Of a DNA stretch of 34,978 nt, positions 4,267 through 9,621 are shown in pieces (positions within the stretch are counted from its first letter, which is position 1; the number at the start of each line of letters is the position of its first letter). The notes beneath the pieces were generated by a model, which had not been told where the DNA came from, did not search any database, and was given only the letters and a program-made list of their open reading frames with translations. The DNA is taken from contig MGEK01000030.1 in NCBI GenBank assembly GCA_001791325.1, positions 1-34,978 on the forward strand. Direction: 5' to 3'. The position numbers and the translations under genes are program-made. The stretch comes from Candidatus Uhrbacteria bacterium RIFCSPLOWO2_01_FULL_47_25 (GTDB lineage Bacteria > Patescibacteriota > Patescibacteriia > GWA2-46-9).

Positions 4267-5052
4267 CTAAATCAAAGGTTGCCAAAACCAAGAATATATT
4301 AACTGCCCATAGACCATCGCAATAAAGGTCCCCATAGTCAAAAAAGTACCCATGGGCAATTTACTGCCAAATTTCTTTTGCCCGGTGGCAAGTAAGAAAA
4401 CGGCGATAATACCGCCAATCATATAAGCAATAAAAAGAGCGGCAAGAGCTCCCTTCGTGCCAAGTATGGCACCGAGAAGCAGACCTAAACGAATATCTCC
4501 GGCGCCGACCCAACGGCCTTGAGAAACAAACCATAATAAAAAGTACAGTCCCCCGCCAATAGCCATACCCAGCAGTAGAGAGGCAAAAGGTATGCCCAAA
4601 AAAATATTGGCGAGGAGAGCAAAAATAATAAGCGGAATTGAAACTTCATCGGGCACAATATACCAGCGAAAATCTAAAATAAAAAGAGCGATGAGGCCGG
4701 AGGTGAAAATGAGATCGCGAAGTAATGTTGAGTAGGTAGTGGGTAGTATGTAGTATGTAGCGGGTTCAAAATGACGGGCCGCAACTAAAATAAACATAAA
4801 AGCGGTGGCGAGCTCTACGAGCGGATACTGCCAAGAAATTGGCGTGCGGCAGTAGCGGCATTTGCCCTTGAGCCACAAAAAACTAATGACCGGAATCAAA
4901 TCTTTGACTGCTAGCACATGCCGACAGTGTGGACAATATGAACGCTGGACTTTGAGCGACTCTTCGTTTGCCAGCCGGATAGTCAGCATATTCAAAAAAC
5001 TGCCGACATTCAACCCTACGAAACCCGTGGAAATATAAATTAAAAATAGCAT
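4267..5052 (-). CDS. pilD: type IV prepilin peptidase / leader peptidase (A24 family)
   Basis: GxxVGSFLNMLTIRLANEE, CPHCRHVL...CRYCRTPIS zinc pairs, polytopic, DFRWYIVPDEVS and GAGDIRLGLLLG catalytic Asp motifs. Confidence 0.93.
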   Translation of the reverse strand: MLFLIYISTGFVGLNVGSFLNMLTIRLANEESLKVQRSYCPHCRHVLAVKDLIPVISFLWLKGKCRYCRTPISWQYPLVELATAFMFILVAARHFEPATYYILPTTYSTLLRDLIFTSGLIALFILDFRWYIVPDEVSIPLIIFALLANIFLGIPFASLLLGMAIGGGLYFLLWFVSQGRWVGAGDIRLGLLLGAILGTKGALAALFIAYMIGGIIAVFLLATGQKKFGSKLPMGTFLTMGTFIAMVYGQLIYSWFWQPLI

Positions 5053-5177
5053 GGGCTTAGAATTATCATTGAGCGAACCATGTTTATCAGTGTAGCGACC
5101 TTAACTCTCTTAGTCAAAAGTTCTTAGTCAGAACTTGACTGCAAACTTACAACAATCAATTAGCACGCGAGGCAACC

Positions 5178-5211
5178 CTATGTATCATTGTACTAGTACG
5201 GTGATACATAG
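5178..5211. terminator. intergenic hairpin, possible terminator or processing structure
   Basis: CTATGTATCATTGTACTAGTACGGTGATACATAG: near-perfect inverted repeat between GT2 and pilD; the two inner T/G mismatches could be G-U pairs in one strand's RNA. No strong T-run. Confidence 0.4.
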
Positions 5212-5263
5212 CCCAAGCCCCATAATCAAATGGCCTAGCCCGTTGGGCGCATATTATGTTGGA

Positions 5264-5989
5264 CTAAAATTTCCGCAAGCCGGTTTTGTAGAGAAAAATA
5301 TTGTATAAAATTTCCGAGCCGTATTTGATTGATGGCCAAAGGCCAATTTGCGACGATTCTGGAAAATAACGGGTGGTAATGGGGATTTCTTTAATCTTAA
5401 TTCCACGAGCGGCAAGTTGAATAATAATTTGCGTATCAAATACAAAATCATCGGAATTCATCTCAATATCAATTTGTTCAAAAACGCGGCGATCATAAGC
5501 GCGAAAACCGGAATGAAATTCCGTAAGATTAGTGCCCAGAAAAAAATTACCTATTTTAGTAAGCACGATATTAAAAAAGAATTTCCAGCGCGGCATACCG
5601 CCAGCTAAGGCATCTGAACGGTTAATCATTCGGGAGCCAAAAACCGCCCAGTAACCGTCATCAACCATGGTTTTAATCATTTCTGGAATAAATTTAGGGT
5701 CATATTGATGGTCCGGGTGCACCATCACCATAATATCCGCTCCCCTTTCCAGCGCGGTCTTATAGCATGTTTTCTGGTTGCCGCCATAACCGCGATTTTT
5801 TTTGTGCACGACGACATGCACCGGTAATGTTTTTGCTACCTCCACAGTATCGTCGCGACTGGCATCATCAACCAATATCACCTCATCAATCATCTCGTGC
5901 GGTAAATCATTATAGGTTTTCATCAAAGTTTTACCCGCATTATACGCGGGCATCACCACAATTATTTTTTTATTATGATATGGCATCAA
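5264..5989 (-). CDS. glycosyltransferase family 2 (DPM1-like polyprenol-phosphate glycosyltransferase)
   Basis: VVMPAYNAGKTLMKTYNDLPHEMIDEVILVDDASRDDTVEVA...NRGYGGNQKTCYKTALERGADIMVMVHPDHQYDP...GSR. Confidence 0.92.
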   Translation of the reverse strand: MMPYHNKKIIVVMPAYNAGKTLMKTYNDLPHEMIDEVILVDDASRDDTVEVAKTLPVHVVVHKKNRGYGGNQKTCYKTALERGADIMVMVHPDHQYDPKFIPEMIKTMVDDGYWAVFGSRMINRSDALAGGMPRWKFFFNIVLTKIGNFFLGTNLTEFHSGFRAYDRRVFEQIDIEMNSDDFVFDTQIIIQLAARGIKIKEIPITTRYFPESSQIGLWPSIKYGSEILYNIFLYKTGLRKF

Positions 5990-6007
5990 TTTTAATTAGC
6001 TAATGCG

Positions 6008-6268
6008 CTATTTATAAAGATTGCTGTGCGTGTCTATAATCACAAATAAACAAACGTCATCTGAAATCATTTTGTAAATTACCCGAAGATCGCCGGCGAT
6101 GCCGATGCTTCTGTACCCATGATAGCGCCCGTGAAGTTGATGATTCTTAAGTATTGAGTTGAATGGATCCTCTAGAAAAATGTTTCGACGTTCCTTAAAT
6201 TTTTCCATTTGGGCTGGCCGCAACTTCTTATACGCCTTGATGAAGTCCTTATGCAGGACAATGTTCAT
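6008..6268 (-). CDS. RelE/ParE-superfamily toxin, YafQ-like
   Basis: 86 aa; HKDFIKAYKKL...NHQLHGRYHGYRSIGIAGDLRVIYKM...LFVIIDTHSNLYK; overlaps the antitoxin ORF by 4 nt. Confidence 0.85.
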   Translation of the reverse strand: MNIVLHKDFIKAYKKLRPAQMEKFKERRNIFLEDPFNSILKNHQLHGRYHGYRSIGIAGDLRVIYKMISDDVCLFVIIDTHSNLYK

Positions 6269-6540
6269 ACTTCATCAAGGTAATCATCCATTGCCTTCGC
6301 AGACGCAAATTTCGGCGAGATATTGCGCCCGGTCTTGATATCGGCCTCAACCCGACCGAGAATTGCCTCAAGCGCTGGCGTCATGCGCGGCGCCGCCGAG
6401 AGATAAACCTGACGACCGCGAATAAACTCCTTAAGGTAGGCATTAATCACAGTGCTCAAGGGCAAGCCCAATTCACGAGCGACCTCCTGCGCCTGCTGTT
6501 TTACCGCCTTGTCGGCTTTAATATTGATGACGGTCTTCAT
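6265..6540 (-). CDS. RelB/DinJ-family antitoxin
   Basis: MKTVINIKADKAVKQQAQEVARELGLPLSTVINAYLKEFIRGR ribbon-helix-helix. ATG at 6538-6540 preferred over the track start at 6564 because conserved similarity begins there. Confidence 0.85.
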   Translation of the reverse strand: MKTVINIKADKAVKQQAQEVARELGLPLSTVINAYLKEFIRGRQVYLSAAPRMTPALEAILGRVEADIKTGRNISPKFASAKAMDDYLDEV

Positions 6541-6673
6541 ATGAAGTTCCAAAATTATTATCATTCGACGGAATCCGCCGAAGCTTCCATCCTCACCGAA
6601 GAGAGCCGAGGATGTTGCTCATAGCCGATGCATACTTCATCCTCATGTATTTCTGGCGAAGGTGAATAACCAA

Positions 6674-6702
6674 AGTATATACAACGGTTATTTATATGTC
6701 AA
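6674..6702 (-). promoter_or_regulatory. sigma70-type promoter for the toxin-antitoxin operon
   Basis: Minus strand TTGACA (6702-6697), 17-nt spacer, TATACT (6679-6674), upstream of the antitoxin. Confidence 0.65.
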
Positions 6703-6704
6703 TA

Positions 6705-7037
6705 GCCACAAGCGGTCGTTGTGGGTTTTCACCAGAGTTTACCCCGTTACAAGAAAGCCACAGGGTAAAAGCTGTGTATGAACCCAATCTGGCAAACCCG
6801 AGGATAAACGCATAAGTGAAGCTCCTCGACTTTATGGTCAAGGCCTCCACAGAGATTGGGGGAGCGCCTGCCTGCCGGCAAGGCAGGAAACCCCGCACCG
6901 TCCCGCACCATCCGTCCATGGCGGATCGGTGCGGGACTGGTGCGTTGGGTATGAATCTTGTGGTCATCTTGTAACGGGGTTTTTTCCGCATTATAGGCGG
7001 GCATCACCACAATTATTTTTTTATTGTGATATGGCAT
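6705..7037 (-). pseudogene. truncated GT2 gene fragment interrupted by a small TIR-bounded element
   Basis: MPYHNKKIIVVMPAYNAEKT (7037-6981) nearly identical to the N-terminus of the 5264-5989 GT2. Homology resumes after the insert as TLVKTHND (6740-6716; intact copy TLMKTYND), then a stop. Confidence 0.8.
6741..6980. mobile_element. MITE-like element (240 bp), non-coding, terminal inverted repeats
   Basis: TIRs ACCCCGTTACAAGA (6741-6754) / TCTTGTAACGGGGT (6967-6980), with CCACA also matching after 3 mismatches. Internal hairpins CCTGCCTGCCGGCAAGGCAGG and GTCCCGCACC...GGTGCGGGAC. Confidence 0.7.
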
Positions 7038-9621
7038 TGCTGTGAAGTGACTTATTGATTGATTTGCTACCCAATAAATCTAAAATTAACAGTACCATCA
7101 CTACAGTCAGTGCCAATATGGCAAAAATTACAGACGCTGTCCAAAAAGTTGGTGTATATATAAACGTCACAATGTGTTTGCCCTTAGGCACGAATACTCC
7201 GCGAAAAGCTATATTAGCTGGATAGATTTTTTGCTCTTTACCATCAACATAGGCTCTCCATCCGGGATAATATGAATCTGTTAGAACTAATAACCCATCG
7301 TATTGACTGTCGGTTGCTATTTTAACTTTCTCGTTCTGATATTCTGTGATGTTGGCCGCACTTATTAAATCACCAGAAGCATCAACTTTGTTTAATAAAT
7401 CAGCTGGCATTTGTTTGTCTTCTAATATCGCTGTTTTATCTTCATTAAATTGCGATGCCGTAAATGTTGACAGTGCTTCTTCGGGACTTCTCACGAGCTG
7501 AATGTTGTAAGCAATGAATGCGCGCGGCAAGACAGATTTATTTTCATAAATATTTACTGAATCGTCAGAATAAACCAAAGAGAGGTCCGAGCGTTGTCGT
7601 AATTCAATATTTTCTAGATCATTTTTTGATTGAACAAAATATTTAACACCCATTAATCTAAAGGCATCACCTGCAAAAAAGGCATAATACCATCGCTGAT
7701 CTGCAACAACTAAATTATTTTCAATACCACGTATGTGTTTTTGCAATATCTGGTATCGCCCAGGAGCCAGTGGATCATAGCCACGGATATCTTGTAAATG
7801 CCATATAGTGCTACTATTTGGAATAACAGCAGTAGTGGGATAGTATTTATACTTAAAACTTGTAAAACGATATAAGCCAGCATGATCTTGAAGAAATTCT
7901 AAAGCATTGGTCTTTGGATAAACCAACTCCCGCGATGAGCGTGGATGCAGAATCATAGCATAATAAAATAGCGGAGCAATAACGGCCATGAACAATCCAG
8001 CTTTTATATAGAAAGTATTAAACTTACTGTGGAAAATGCCAATGATTACAGTGCATATAAATAAGAGTGCAACAAAAAAAATCCAAAGAATATCACGCAT
8101 GAGCACTTCCGTGAATACTATATATCCCCATAACGCTGGCAGTATTAAAGTAACAAGAATGCTCAAGTATGCAAGAATAGTGGCTGGAGGAATTGGAATG
8201 TTATTACTATAAAATGGTCTGCTAAGTGGCTGATGGTGTTTAATATTTGATAGATATTTTTTAACTTCTTCCATCATAACATCTGCTCCAATGGCGGCTA
8301 GGATTGCTAAAGAAAAAACGAAAACGAAACGAATGCGTTCAAGTTTTATTTTACTAAACGGAAATACGTATCCAATGAAGCCAATGAAAGAAAAATTAAC
8401 AATTATTAGTAGACAAAATACTGCCACTAAAAACCAAAAAGTGCGATACTTGGAAAATTTCCTTTTGCTAAATAATACTGCCACTATAGCCAACGCAGTA
8501 GCAGAGGCTCCTATAAAACCAGCTCTTTCATTATTATTGAGTATAATTTGACTCCTAACACCAACCATAGAATTTGATACTGGATTACCAAAAAAATCGG
8601 GGTACAAAAGTACCAAAAAATTAGCCAAACCAGATCGACGATCTTTCGCATTATGCTTCTCCGGTATCTCGGCAACATTTACGGTCTCTGTGCTTAACGA
8701 TAGATAAGGATCGCGGCCCTGTTCCAATGCCTCGCTCTGCACAATATATTCAACTGTAGGAATTACCTGCGGAGCCGCCATGGATAATCCCAAAATAATC
8801 ATTATAATCACCGATGATACTAGGCGAAAATAATAGTGAGCCCGTTCCTTGATAACACTTGGTGATTGAAAATAGGCCAGAAATAATGTGAAGATTGCTA
8901 TTATACAAAAAATTAATAACGACATTTGTGGTTGTCCTGAGTAAAACTGCGCCGCTACGCCAATGGCTCCAATAACGATCCAGCGCACTCGTCGTGACGT
9001 TGAAATATTATTTATATTCCAGAGAATAAATGGTAACCACAAGAAGGCGCTAGAAAGAGGATACCCCAACCACGCTGTCATTGGGCCGGATAAAACGAAT
9101 ATTACAGAACCAATCAGTGCGCCAAATGTTTCTACAGAAAATGCGCGTAAAAACAGATACATGAAAAATCCGCCAAATATGATCACAAACAATAACGAAC
9201 TTTCGAATATCTCTTGCGCATCTAGACGGGAAAAATACCCGATTATTTTGGTGAAATCAAAAACTGAAGATTGGCCGTTTGCAATGAATGGAGCCCCATT
9301 CATTGTATAGGGGTTCCACATTGGCAACTGCCCAGAGTCAATACGTTCCTTCGTAAATACAATACTTGGATATACATATTGCGTTAAATCAGACAATAAA
9401 CTATTTCCGCTTACCTGTTCCTGGAGCTCGTTGCCTTTATATATTGAATCAAGACCAATAATGACGTTCGTTGGCAATATTGTTTTTTTGTTAAGTATAG
9501 ACGGCAACAAGAATACGTTACCGATTAAAATGAAAACTAATAATGCTATGAAGAATTCATTTTTTACTGATTCCACTAAACGTAAATGCAAGGTATATGC
9601 TTTTTTAAAATTAATTCCCAT
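7021..9621 (-). CDS. YfhO-like polytopic membrane protein (probable glycosyltransferase-related)
   Basis: 866 aa, many TM segments, C-terminal LVLTDSYYPGWRAYVDGKEQKIYPANIAFRGVFVPKGKHIVTFIYTP typical of YfhO-like proteins. Confidence 0.85.
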   Translation of the reverse strand: MGINFKKAYTLHLRLVESVKNEFFIALLVFILIGNVFLLPSILNKKTILPTNVIIGLDSIYKGNELQEQVSGNSLLSDLTQYVYPSIVFTKERIDSGQLPMWNPYTMNGAPFIANGQSSVFDFTKIIGYFSRLDAQEIFESSLLFVIIFGGFFMYLFLRAFSVETFGALIGSVIFVLSGPMTAWLGYPLSSAFLWLPFILWNINNISTSRRVRWIVIGAIGVAAQFYSGQPQMSLLIFCIIAIFTLFLAYFQSPSVIKERAHYYFRLVSSVIIMIILGLSMAAPQVIPTVEYIVQSEALEQGRDPYLSLSTETVNVAEIPEKHNAKDRRSGLANFLVLLYPDFFGNPVSNSMVGVRSQIILNNNERAGFIGASATALAIVAVLFSKRKFSKYRTFWFLVAVFCLLIIVNFSFIGFIGYVFPFSKIKLERIRFVFVFSLAILAAIGADVMMEEVKKYLSNIKHHQPLSRPFYSNNIPIPPATILAYLSILVTLILPALWGYIVFTEVLMRDILWIFFVALLFICTVIIGIFHSKFNTFYIKAGLFMAVIAPLFYYAMILHPRSSRELVYPKTNALEFLQDHAGLYRFTSFKYKYYPTTAVIPNSSTIWHLQDIRGYDPLAPGRYQILQKHIRGIENNLVVADQRWYYAFFAGDAFRLMGVKYFVQSKNDLENIELRQRSDLSLVYSDDSVNIYENKSVLPRAFIAYNIQLVRSPEEALSTFTASQFNEDKTAILEDKQMPADLLNKVDASGDLISAANITEYQNEKVKIATDSQYDGLLVLTDSYYPGWRAYVDGKEQKIYPANIAFRGVFVPKGKHIVTFIYTPTFWTASVIFAILALTVVMVLLILDLLGSKSINKSLHSNAISQ

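Follow-up and report, generated by a model that had tools for sequence, protein, structure and literature searches.

A composite inverted-repeat element in a duplicated glycosyltransferase fragment of Candidatus Uhrbacteria, with a GIY-YIG nuclease as candidate mobiliser

Gene context of the interrupted fragment

The window, i.e., the whole stretch of 34,978 nucleotides that was analysed (contig MGEK01000030.1 of Candidatus Uhrbacteria bacterium RIFCSPLOWO2_01_FULL_47_25), carries on its minus strand an intact GT2 glycosyltransferase gene (5264–5986; Pfam PF00535) and a fragment of a second copy, which is split in two. The 5′ part of this fragment (MPYHNKKIIVVMPAYNAE.., 6984–7037, minus strand) shows 93% identity over 59 bp to positions 5928–5986, the start of the intact copy, and its continuation (..TLVKTHND) is found at 6716–6737 on the same strand. 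From 7037 to 6981 the minus strand reads MPYHNKKIIVVMPAYNAEK; after 240 bp, the frame picks up again at TLVKTHND. At the junctions, the order is ATGCCATATCACAATAAAAAAATAATTGTGGTGATGCCCGCCTATAATGCGGAAAAA, the insert from ACCCCGTTACAAG to CTTGTAACGGGGT, and then AAACTCTGGTGAAAACCCACAACGAC. The similarity to GT2 extends over about 27 codons and stops after the continuation, which indicates a truncated fragment rather than a whole interrupted gene. The first-pass annotation had claimed that a GT2 fragment is split here by a 240-bp element, and this claim held, both in the minus-strand reading and in the perfect 13-bp inverted ends of the element.

A single clear orthologue of the GT2 gene is present in each of six other searched genomes (46–57% identity) and no match was obtained in the genus-mate at a cut-off of 1e-10; consequently, the fragment is most likely the remnant of a local duplication. 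It was not found in any other genome among those searched. The 3′ end of a gene for a YfhO-family membrane protein (7021–9621, minus strand) overlaps the ATG of the fragment. Between the 5′ duplicate and the intact GT2 gene, and outside the element, sits a YafQ-type toxin-antitoxin pair (6008–6564, minus strand), which consists of the toxin gene (6008–6268; Pfam PF15738) and a putative antitoxin gene (6265–6564; weak PF19891 match, below cut-off) that overlaps the toxin start. A promoter-like TTGACA-17-TATACT sequence is located at 6702–6674, near the putative antitoxin gene. It is possible that the arrival of this module duplicated the start of the GT2 gene.

Ends, duplication and excised frame of the insert

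The insert is a non-autonomous element with terminal inverted repeats (TIRs), located at 6742–6979 on the minus strand (238 bp, CCCC..GGGG), or at 6741–6980 once the outer A/T pair is added. Its arms, ACCCCGTTACAAG at 6741–6753 and CTTGTAACGGGGT at 6968–6980 (both given on the plus strand), are perfect 13-mers and can be extended to 22 bp with 86% complementarity. These ends are those of 58 other parsed elements of the genome, save for one shared G-to-C change: the family end is ACCCCGTTAGAAG, and the window copy carries variant ends (GTTACAAG) that differ at one position, altered in both arms. Paired copies of this end variant were found nowhere else in 381 genomes. The full 240 bp is unique in its own genome, and its DNA fold z-score is −8.7.

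The two copies of the target duplication lie at 6738–6741 (TTTA) and 6980–6983 (TTTT) on the plus strand in the family-wide 4-bp register, in which three of the four positions agree (AAAA/TAAA). The 2-bp AA duplicate that had been claimed earlier falls inside these copies; it is exact, but it lies in an A-run and the family duplication is most likely 4 bp, and hence this claim held only in part. Both registers excise the identical 242 bp (240 bp plus 2 bp), leaving MPYHNKKIIVVMPAYNAEKTLVKTHND. The claim that excision restores the frame held as well: the flanks minus one duplicate form an 80-bp alignment, free of gaps, with the intact GT2 start (near 5905–5986), and their match to this start within 5900–5989 supports insertion, the intact gene serving as a paralogous empty site. 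The predicted empty-site allele of the fragment is GCGGAAAAAACTCTGG. Frame restoration alone is weak evidence, since it has one chance in three of occurring; the insertion is certain because the ends belong to a family of 59 parsed copies in the own genome.

The window copy is placed at codon 20 of the GT2 fragment, not at a start codon or at the 5′ end of an RNA gene. No Rfam match was obtained at the gathering threshold for positions 5000–8000, i.e., no group I or group II intron and no known RNA family. Among the open reading frames, none inside the 240 bp encodes a DDE transposase. The open reading frame list likewise contains no GIY-YIG ORF within the element, and the window copy can therefore be at most a non-autonomous derivative. 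All MITE criteria are met, namely inverted ends, a short duplication, a dispersed family without a transposase ORF and an empty site. Taking the ends, the duplication, the nesting described below and the paralogous empty site together, the insert is a non-autonomous MITE-like element within the GT2 fragment. It represents a dead-end insertion in a gene fragment, for which no function is needed, and spontaneous precise excision received no support.

A second repeat nested in the element

Within the element, a second repeat of about 135 bp occupies 6816–6950 on the plus strand (GTGAAGCTCC..GTGCGTTGGGT) and contains variable hairpins. Pieces of it are found again in the own genome (contigs C14, C22 and C39) and in the genus-mate, and it recurs without the outer ends in both of these genomes (L003, L004, L032, L058 and L166). 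Minus the 135-bp repeat, the outer element measures 105 bp, which places it in a size class with many sister copies, and folds as an end-to-end hairpin. The window insert is thus a composite of a 105-bp outer element and an unrelated 135-bp structured repeat, and the nesting implies at least two events after the GT2 duplication. The earlier view that the insertion history is legible in the sequence itself held but was incomplete, as it left out both this nesting and a family of at least 59 copies with a probable GIY-YIG partner.

The 135-bp repeat family occurs in both genus-mates with exchangeable hairpins, often CCTGCCTGCCGGCAGG. In the genus-mate, 31-bp hairpin elements (L156, L171) adjoin a similar AAAGYCGTGG sequence. 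Elements within elements were also observed in the form of ATCCCG..CGGGAT or ACCCCG..CGGGGT copies inside GCCCCG..CGGGGT copies (L077 779–1017; L099 223–461; L069 2041–2283).

The element family in the own genome and its relatives

The own genome (G000; 1.2 Mb in 40 contigs) contains 137 exact occurrences of TTCTAACGGGG, 68 and 69 per strand, whereas the reversed control yields 1 and 0. Searching it with CTTGTAACGGGGT at one mismatch returns dozens of CTTCTAACGGGGT, mainly as facing pairs. A total of 59 elements of 31–287 bp with inverted CCCCGTTAGAA..TTCTAACGGGG ends were parsed, the window copy included; this is a lower bound, as the copies came from targeted stretches and not from the whole genome. 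The defining ends of the proposed family are CCCCGTTAGA(A/G), and the window copy, one position different, was counted as meeting them. Relatives of the family occur in 68 of 286 genomes of the class, many of the searched genomes being metagenome assemblies.

With the ends taken as CCCC..GGGG, an exact 4-bp duplication flanks 35 of the 59 elements (shuffled mean 6.7, maximum 15), while 3-bp and 5-bp duplications are found in three and one, respectively. A 2-bp model, which fits 40 of the 59, was dropped for the 4-bp one in view of the low controls of the latter, and an apparent asymmetry between G-ended and A-ended elements is explained away by the 4-bp duplication. Exact 4-bp duplications were also detected in the genus-mate (G001, 11/17), in G264 (7/12) and in G055 (5/8); in G167 they are absent from all 20 elements. 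This last genome (L196–L215) contains bare 30-bp palindromes (ACCCCGTTAGAAATAAATTTCTAACGGGGT) and copies of about 100 bp between T-runs and A-runs, which may constitute a degenerate or terminator-like branch. A 1.78-kb TIR pair on contig C25, considered as an autonomous transposon, was rejected: it carries GTPase and LytR-type genes and no transposase.

Placement at start codons

Nearly half of the own-genome elements (29/59) lie directly against the ATG of an ORF with at least 50 codons, as at rplB, rplT, rpsG, fusA and dnaB. In controls, this occurs at 0.9% per side for random positions and 4.3% for AT positions; relative to the two-sided 8.6%, the excess has a binomial p of 6e-16. The arrangement reads TATG, CCCCG...CGGGG, TATG. 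Pfam identifies the genes concerned as those of ribosomal proteins L2, L20, S7, S20 and L14, an EF-G-type GTPase, DnaB, HrcA, DNA polymerase III delta and an ABC protein.

At rplB, the own genome has an element directly 5′ of the ATG, and the genus-mate reads GAAGGAGTATAAAGT immediately followed by ATGGGC, with no element; the family-mate has none either. This constitutes an orthologous empty site for a sister copy of the window element. At the GT2-fragment locus itself, the empty site in related genomes that the first-pass annotation had looked to was not found, no other genome with the fragment having been detected. Two genes carry an element in both genus-mates, one encoding the MSENYMNEQ/MNENYMNEQ protein and the other beginning MPNKP.. 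(S20 in the own genome), and occupancy is therefore partly inherited. At rplT, the flanks, once joined, would fuse rpmI and rplT; some start-codon copies are consequently not clean insertions. A subfamily of 123–140 bp shows a conserved interior, exchangeable hairpins and a fixed orientation relative to the gene.

Boxes of the −10 type are not significantly enriched upstream of the targets, either for the MITE copies (4/31 vs 1.8 in shuffled sequence) or for the GIY-YIG units described below (5/35 vs 2.8), and control gene starts carry them in 12 of 99 cases. Targeting of leaderless promoters was rejected on this ground. Shine-Dalgarno sequences upstream of the left copy are likewise not enriched (2/31 and 3/35, background 8%).

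Some copies adjoin a CIRCE-like GAGTGCTAA box, one upstream of hrcA in the own genome (L099 223–461) and one, a GIY-YIG unit, in G264 (L180 926–1210). Copies in this position could conceivably change heat-shock regulation.

GIY-YIG units with family ends

Family ends also enclose units of 277–287 bp whose sole ORF encodes a single-domain GIY-YIG nuclease of about 86 aa. Those of the own genome (L107, 287 bp) and of G264 (L180, 285 bp) contain a complete 86-aa ORF with its stop in the right TIR. Tight bracketing by TIRs (inverted-repeat score ≥ 12) was observed for 14 of the 52 single-domain GIY-YIG ORFs in 13 genomes and for 13 of the 26 closest relatives in 381 genomes of the class; across GTDB, inverted repeats with a score ≥ 10 bracket 56 of the best 80 relatives. 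Of the other small ORFs in these loci, 156 in number, only 3 are bracketed, none at a score ≥ 12. No TIR is detectable for the remaining 24 of the best 80 GTDB relatives, nor for most of the more distant GIY-YIG ORFs. According to their record titles, the relatives derive from many Patescibacteria lineages and from Omnitrophota, Scalindua, Neomarinimicrobiota, Planctomycetota and others, with the caveat that single MAG contigs may be misbinned.

Once redundancy was removed, 76 units with an NCCC core remained, and the right end of 46 of them coincides with a start codon. In this set, the 4-bp duplication is exact in 20 units in one register (expected 4.2) and in 17 in the adjacent one (expected 2.0). 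Where the ends are TCCCG..CGGGA, the insertion site is TGAA or TGAG, and the ATG is completed by the final A of the element.

Several different TIR sequences each enclose a GIY-YIG ORF within about 277–350 bp, with no space for a second gene, and no DDE transposase was found in the autonomous units. Furthermore, identity between proteins is correlated with identity between their ends (rho 0.73 vs a permutation maximum of 0.28), and the motif residues Y, Y, R, H and E are 99–100% conserved in 67 aligned proteins. At least eight TIR hits are present in 8 of 21 genomes with the nuclease vs 12 of 265 others (p 1.5e-5), a test that is partly circular because every autonomous unit contributes two TIR hits. 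The nearest solved sequences to the nuclease are UPF0213 (1zg2, E 5.8e-6) and, weakly, SLX1 (7wme, E 0.035). A further GIY-YIG ORF (L216) is bracketed by TGTCATCCTGAGCTTGTCGAA, a hint that more repeat families may belong to the GIY-YIG class.

RNA genes as insertion sites

GIY-YIG units are also located at the exact 5′ ends of tRNA genes (L325, L332 and L380; right ends near 1757–1764) and directly before an RNase P RNA gene (L222). In the tRNA genes, the CGGG end of the unit appears to restore the first tRNA bases. The only 16S gene detected in the own genome contains a 103-bp family copy (L109 362–464; C19:26261–26363) with CCAG duplicated. This copy lies in the 530 loop (GCCA^GCAGC), three bases beyond the apparent end of an intron-like insert of about 500 bp. 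A 2024 survey of rRNA insertions in CPR bacteria reported that all GIY-YIG ORFs lie in insertions unlike either intron class, together with many ORF-less insertions below 200 bp of uncharacterised type and origin (PMC11270868). The element family is a possible explanation for these insertions; no comparison with that data set was made.

Proposed mechanism and rival explanations

The history of the locus, as read from its ends, duplication, nesting and paralogous empty site, is that a TIR element with CCCCGTTAGAA-type ends and a 4-bp duplication entered the duplicated 5′ fragment of the GT2 gene, and that an unrelated 135-bp structured repeat later invaded it. The nuclease of about 86 aa, the sole gene of autonomous elements of 277–330 bp with family ends, is inferred to mobilise the family: it would recognise the ends, which form hairpins, and cleave in a staggered manner, from which the 4-bp duplication would result, and the short copies would be moved in trans. 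Insertion would favour the exact start of a gene, with TATG or (A)TGAA/TGAG start codons as the main targets; the position itself is shown. The right-hand duplicate, at times with the last base of the element, would re-create the start codon, and by this inferred mechanism even essential genes would tolerate the insert.

Among the alternatives, it is unlikely that a conventional DDE transposase, lost from this genome or unassembled in it, moves the MITE family in trans and that the GIY-YIG ORFs are captured passengers. DDE MITEs are generally recognised by their TIRs, their short target duplications and the abundance of copies without coding capacity, all of which are seen here. The sole kilobase-scale TIR pair examined in the own genome, the 1.78-kb pair on C25, has no transposase, in a search that was not exhaustive for the remainder of the genome. 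Against this reading, distinct TIR sequences independently bracket GIY-YIG ORFs in spaces (about 277–350 bp) that leave no room for another gene; and protein and TIR co-vary, with no DDE ORF seen between such ends. Even less probable is that the elements are intron- or IVS-like intervening sequences, removed from the RNA so that the excised frame is expressed. The long terminal stems, the copy that follows a probable intron end by 3 nt in the single 16S gene, and the many short ORF-less insertions of unknown type in CPR rRNA genes (PMC11270868) would agree with it, but most copies are intergenic or precede a start codon, so that splicing would gain nothing, the joined window fragment codes for only about 27 codons, and no Rfam intron matches.

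The start-codon copies could instead be selected 5′-leader or promoter cassettes, in a family that spreads by recombination and by insertion at random, with selection acting afterwards. This is compatible with either mobiliser and remains a live alternative for the 123–140-bp subfamily, given its conserved interior, exchangeable hairpins and fixed orientation, and the at least two genes occupied in both genus-mates. It is opposed by a distance to the ATG of exactly zero rather than a spread upstream, by the same placement of GIY-YIG units with unrelated interiors, and by the negative Shine-Dalgarno and −10 results. A chance hairpin or an assembly artefact could be invoked for a single window, but can be practically discarded in view of the fold z-score of −8.7, the 59 parsed copies and the relatives in 68/286 genomes of the class.

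Overall, the window insert is likely a non-autonomous copy of a family whose mobiliser is, by inference, the GIY-YIG nuclease; no transposition was observed. The limits of this nuclease-mobilised reading are that the end variant of the window copy is paired in none of the other genomes searched and that its duplication agrees at only three of four positions. It also remains conceivable that another enzyme moves the MITEs and that the nuclease is a passenger. A bolder reading, which the evidence favours by a narrow margin, is that of a class of DNA transposons with the nuclease of about 86 aa as only enzyme, comprising 277–330-bp units with hairpin-forming TIRs, 4-bp duplications and exact insertion at start codons and RNA-gene 5′ ends, present in Patescibacteria and other phyla and accompanied by many non-autonomous derivatives, short rRNA insertions included.

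Significance and comparison with known systems

Taken alone, the window copy is an ordinary dead MITE insertion, and its value lies in the family that it reveals. If the nuclease is the mobiliser, it would be a new catalytic type in DNA transposition and would show how a parasite can enter the start codons of essential genes. Given the known sizes of insertion sequences, the size of a self-sufficient transposon would then be roughly halved; to our knowledge, no autonomous transposons are smaller than the proposed 277–330-bp units. The family also offers a testable origin for two oddities of Patescibacteria, the non-intron GIY-YIG rRNA insertions and the short ORF-less ones (PMC11270868). No published description of the end sequences or of GIY-YIG elements with inverted repeats was found in the open-access literature searched, preprints excluded.

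That rRNA survey is a close precedent, with its non-intron GIY-YIG insertions and short ORF-less insertions, and a 103-bp family copy is likewise present in the own 16S gene; in contrast to the present analysis, the term "inverted repeat" is absent from it and no tie to the start codons of protein genes is made (PMC11270868). The catalytic family and motif residues are shared with GIY-YIG homing endonucleases of the I-TevI class and with single-domain UPF0213- and SLX1-like proteins. Here, however, a free-standing 86-aa domain lies within TIRs, with duplications at many unrelated sites, no single homing site and no intron. Penelope-like retroelements are transposable elements that combine a GIY-YIG nuclease with a reverse transcriptase, whereas the present unit has no reverse transcriptase and is DNA-only.

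Bacterial MITEs resemble the short copies in their size, lack of a transposase gene, terminal inverted repeats, short duplication, high copy number and nested insertions. They differ in that no DDE partner was found here, the candidate partner being a GIY-YIG nuclease in a 277–330-bp unit, and in the exact start-codon placement. REP/BIME sequences and their RAYT (Y1) partners are similar in that the smallest members are bare hairpins of 30–31 bp and the helper is a small nuclease. Unlike these, the present family has 4-bp duplications and true TIRs, and its putative helper is of the GIY-YIG rather than the Y1-HUH type, with its gene inside the repeats.
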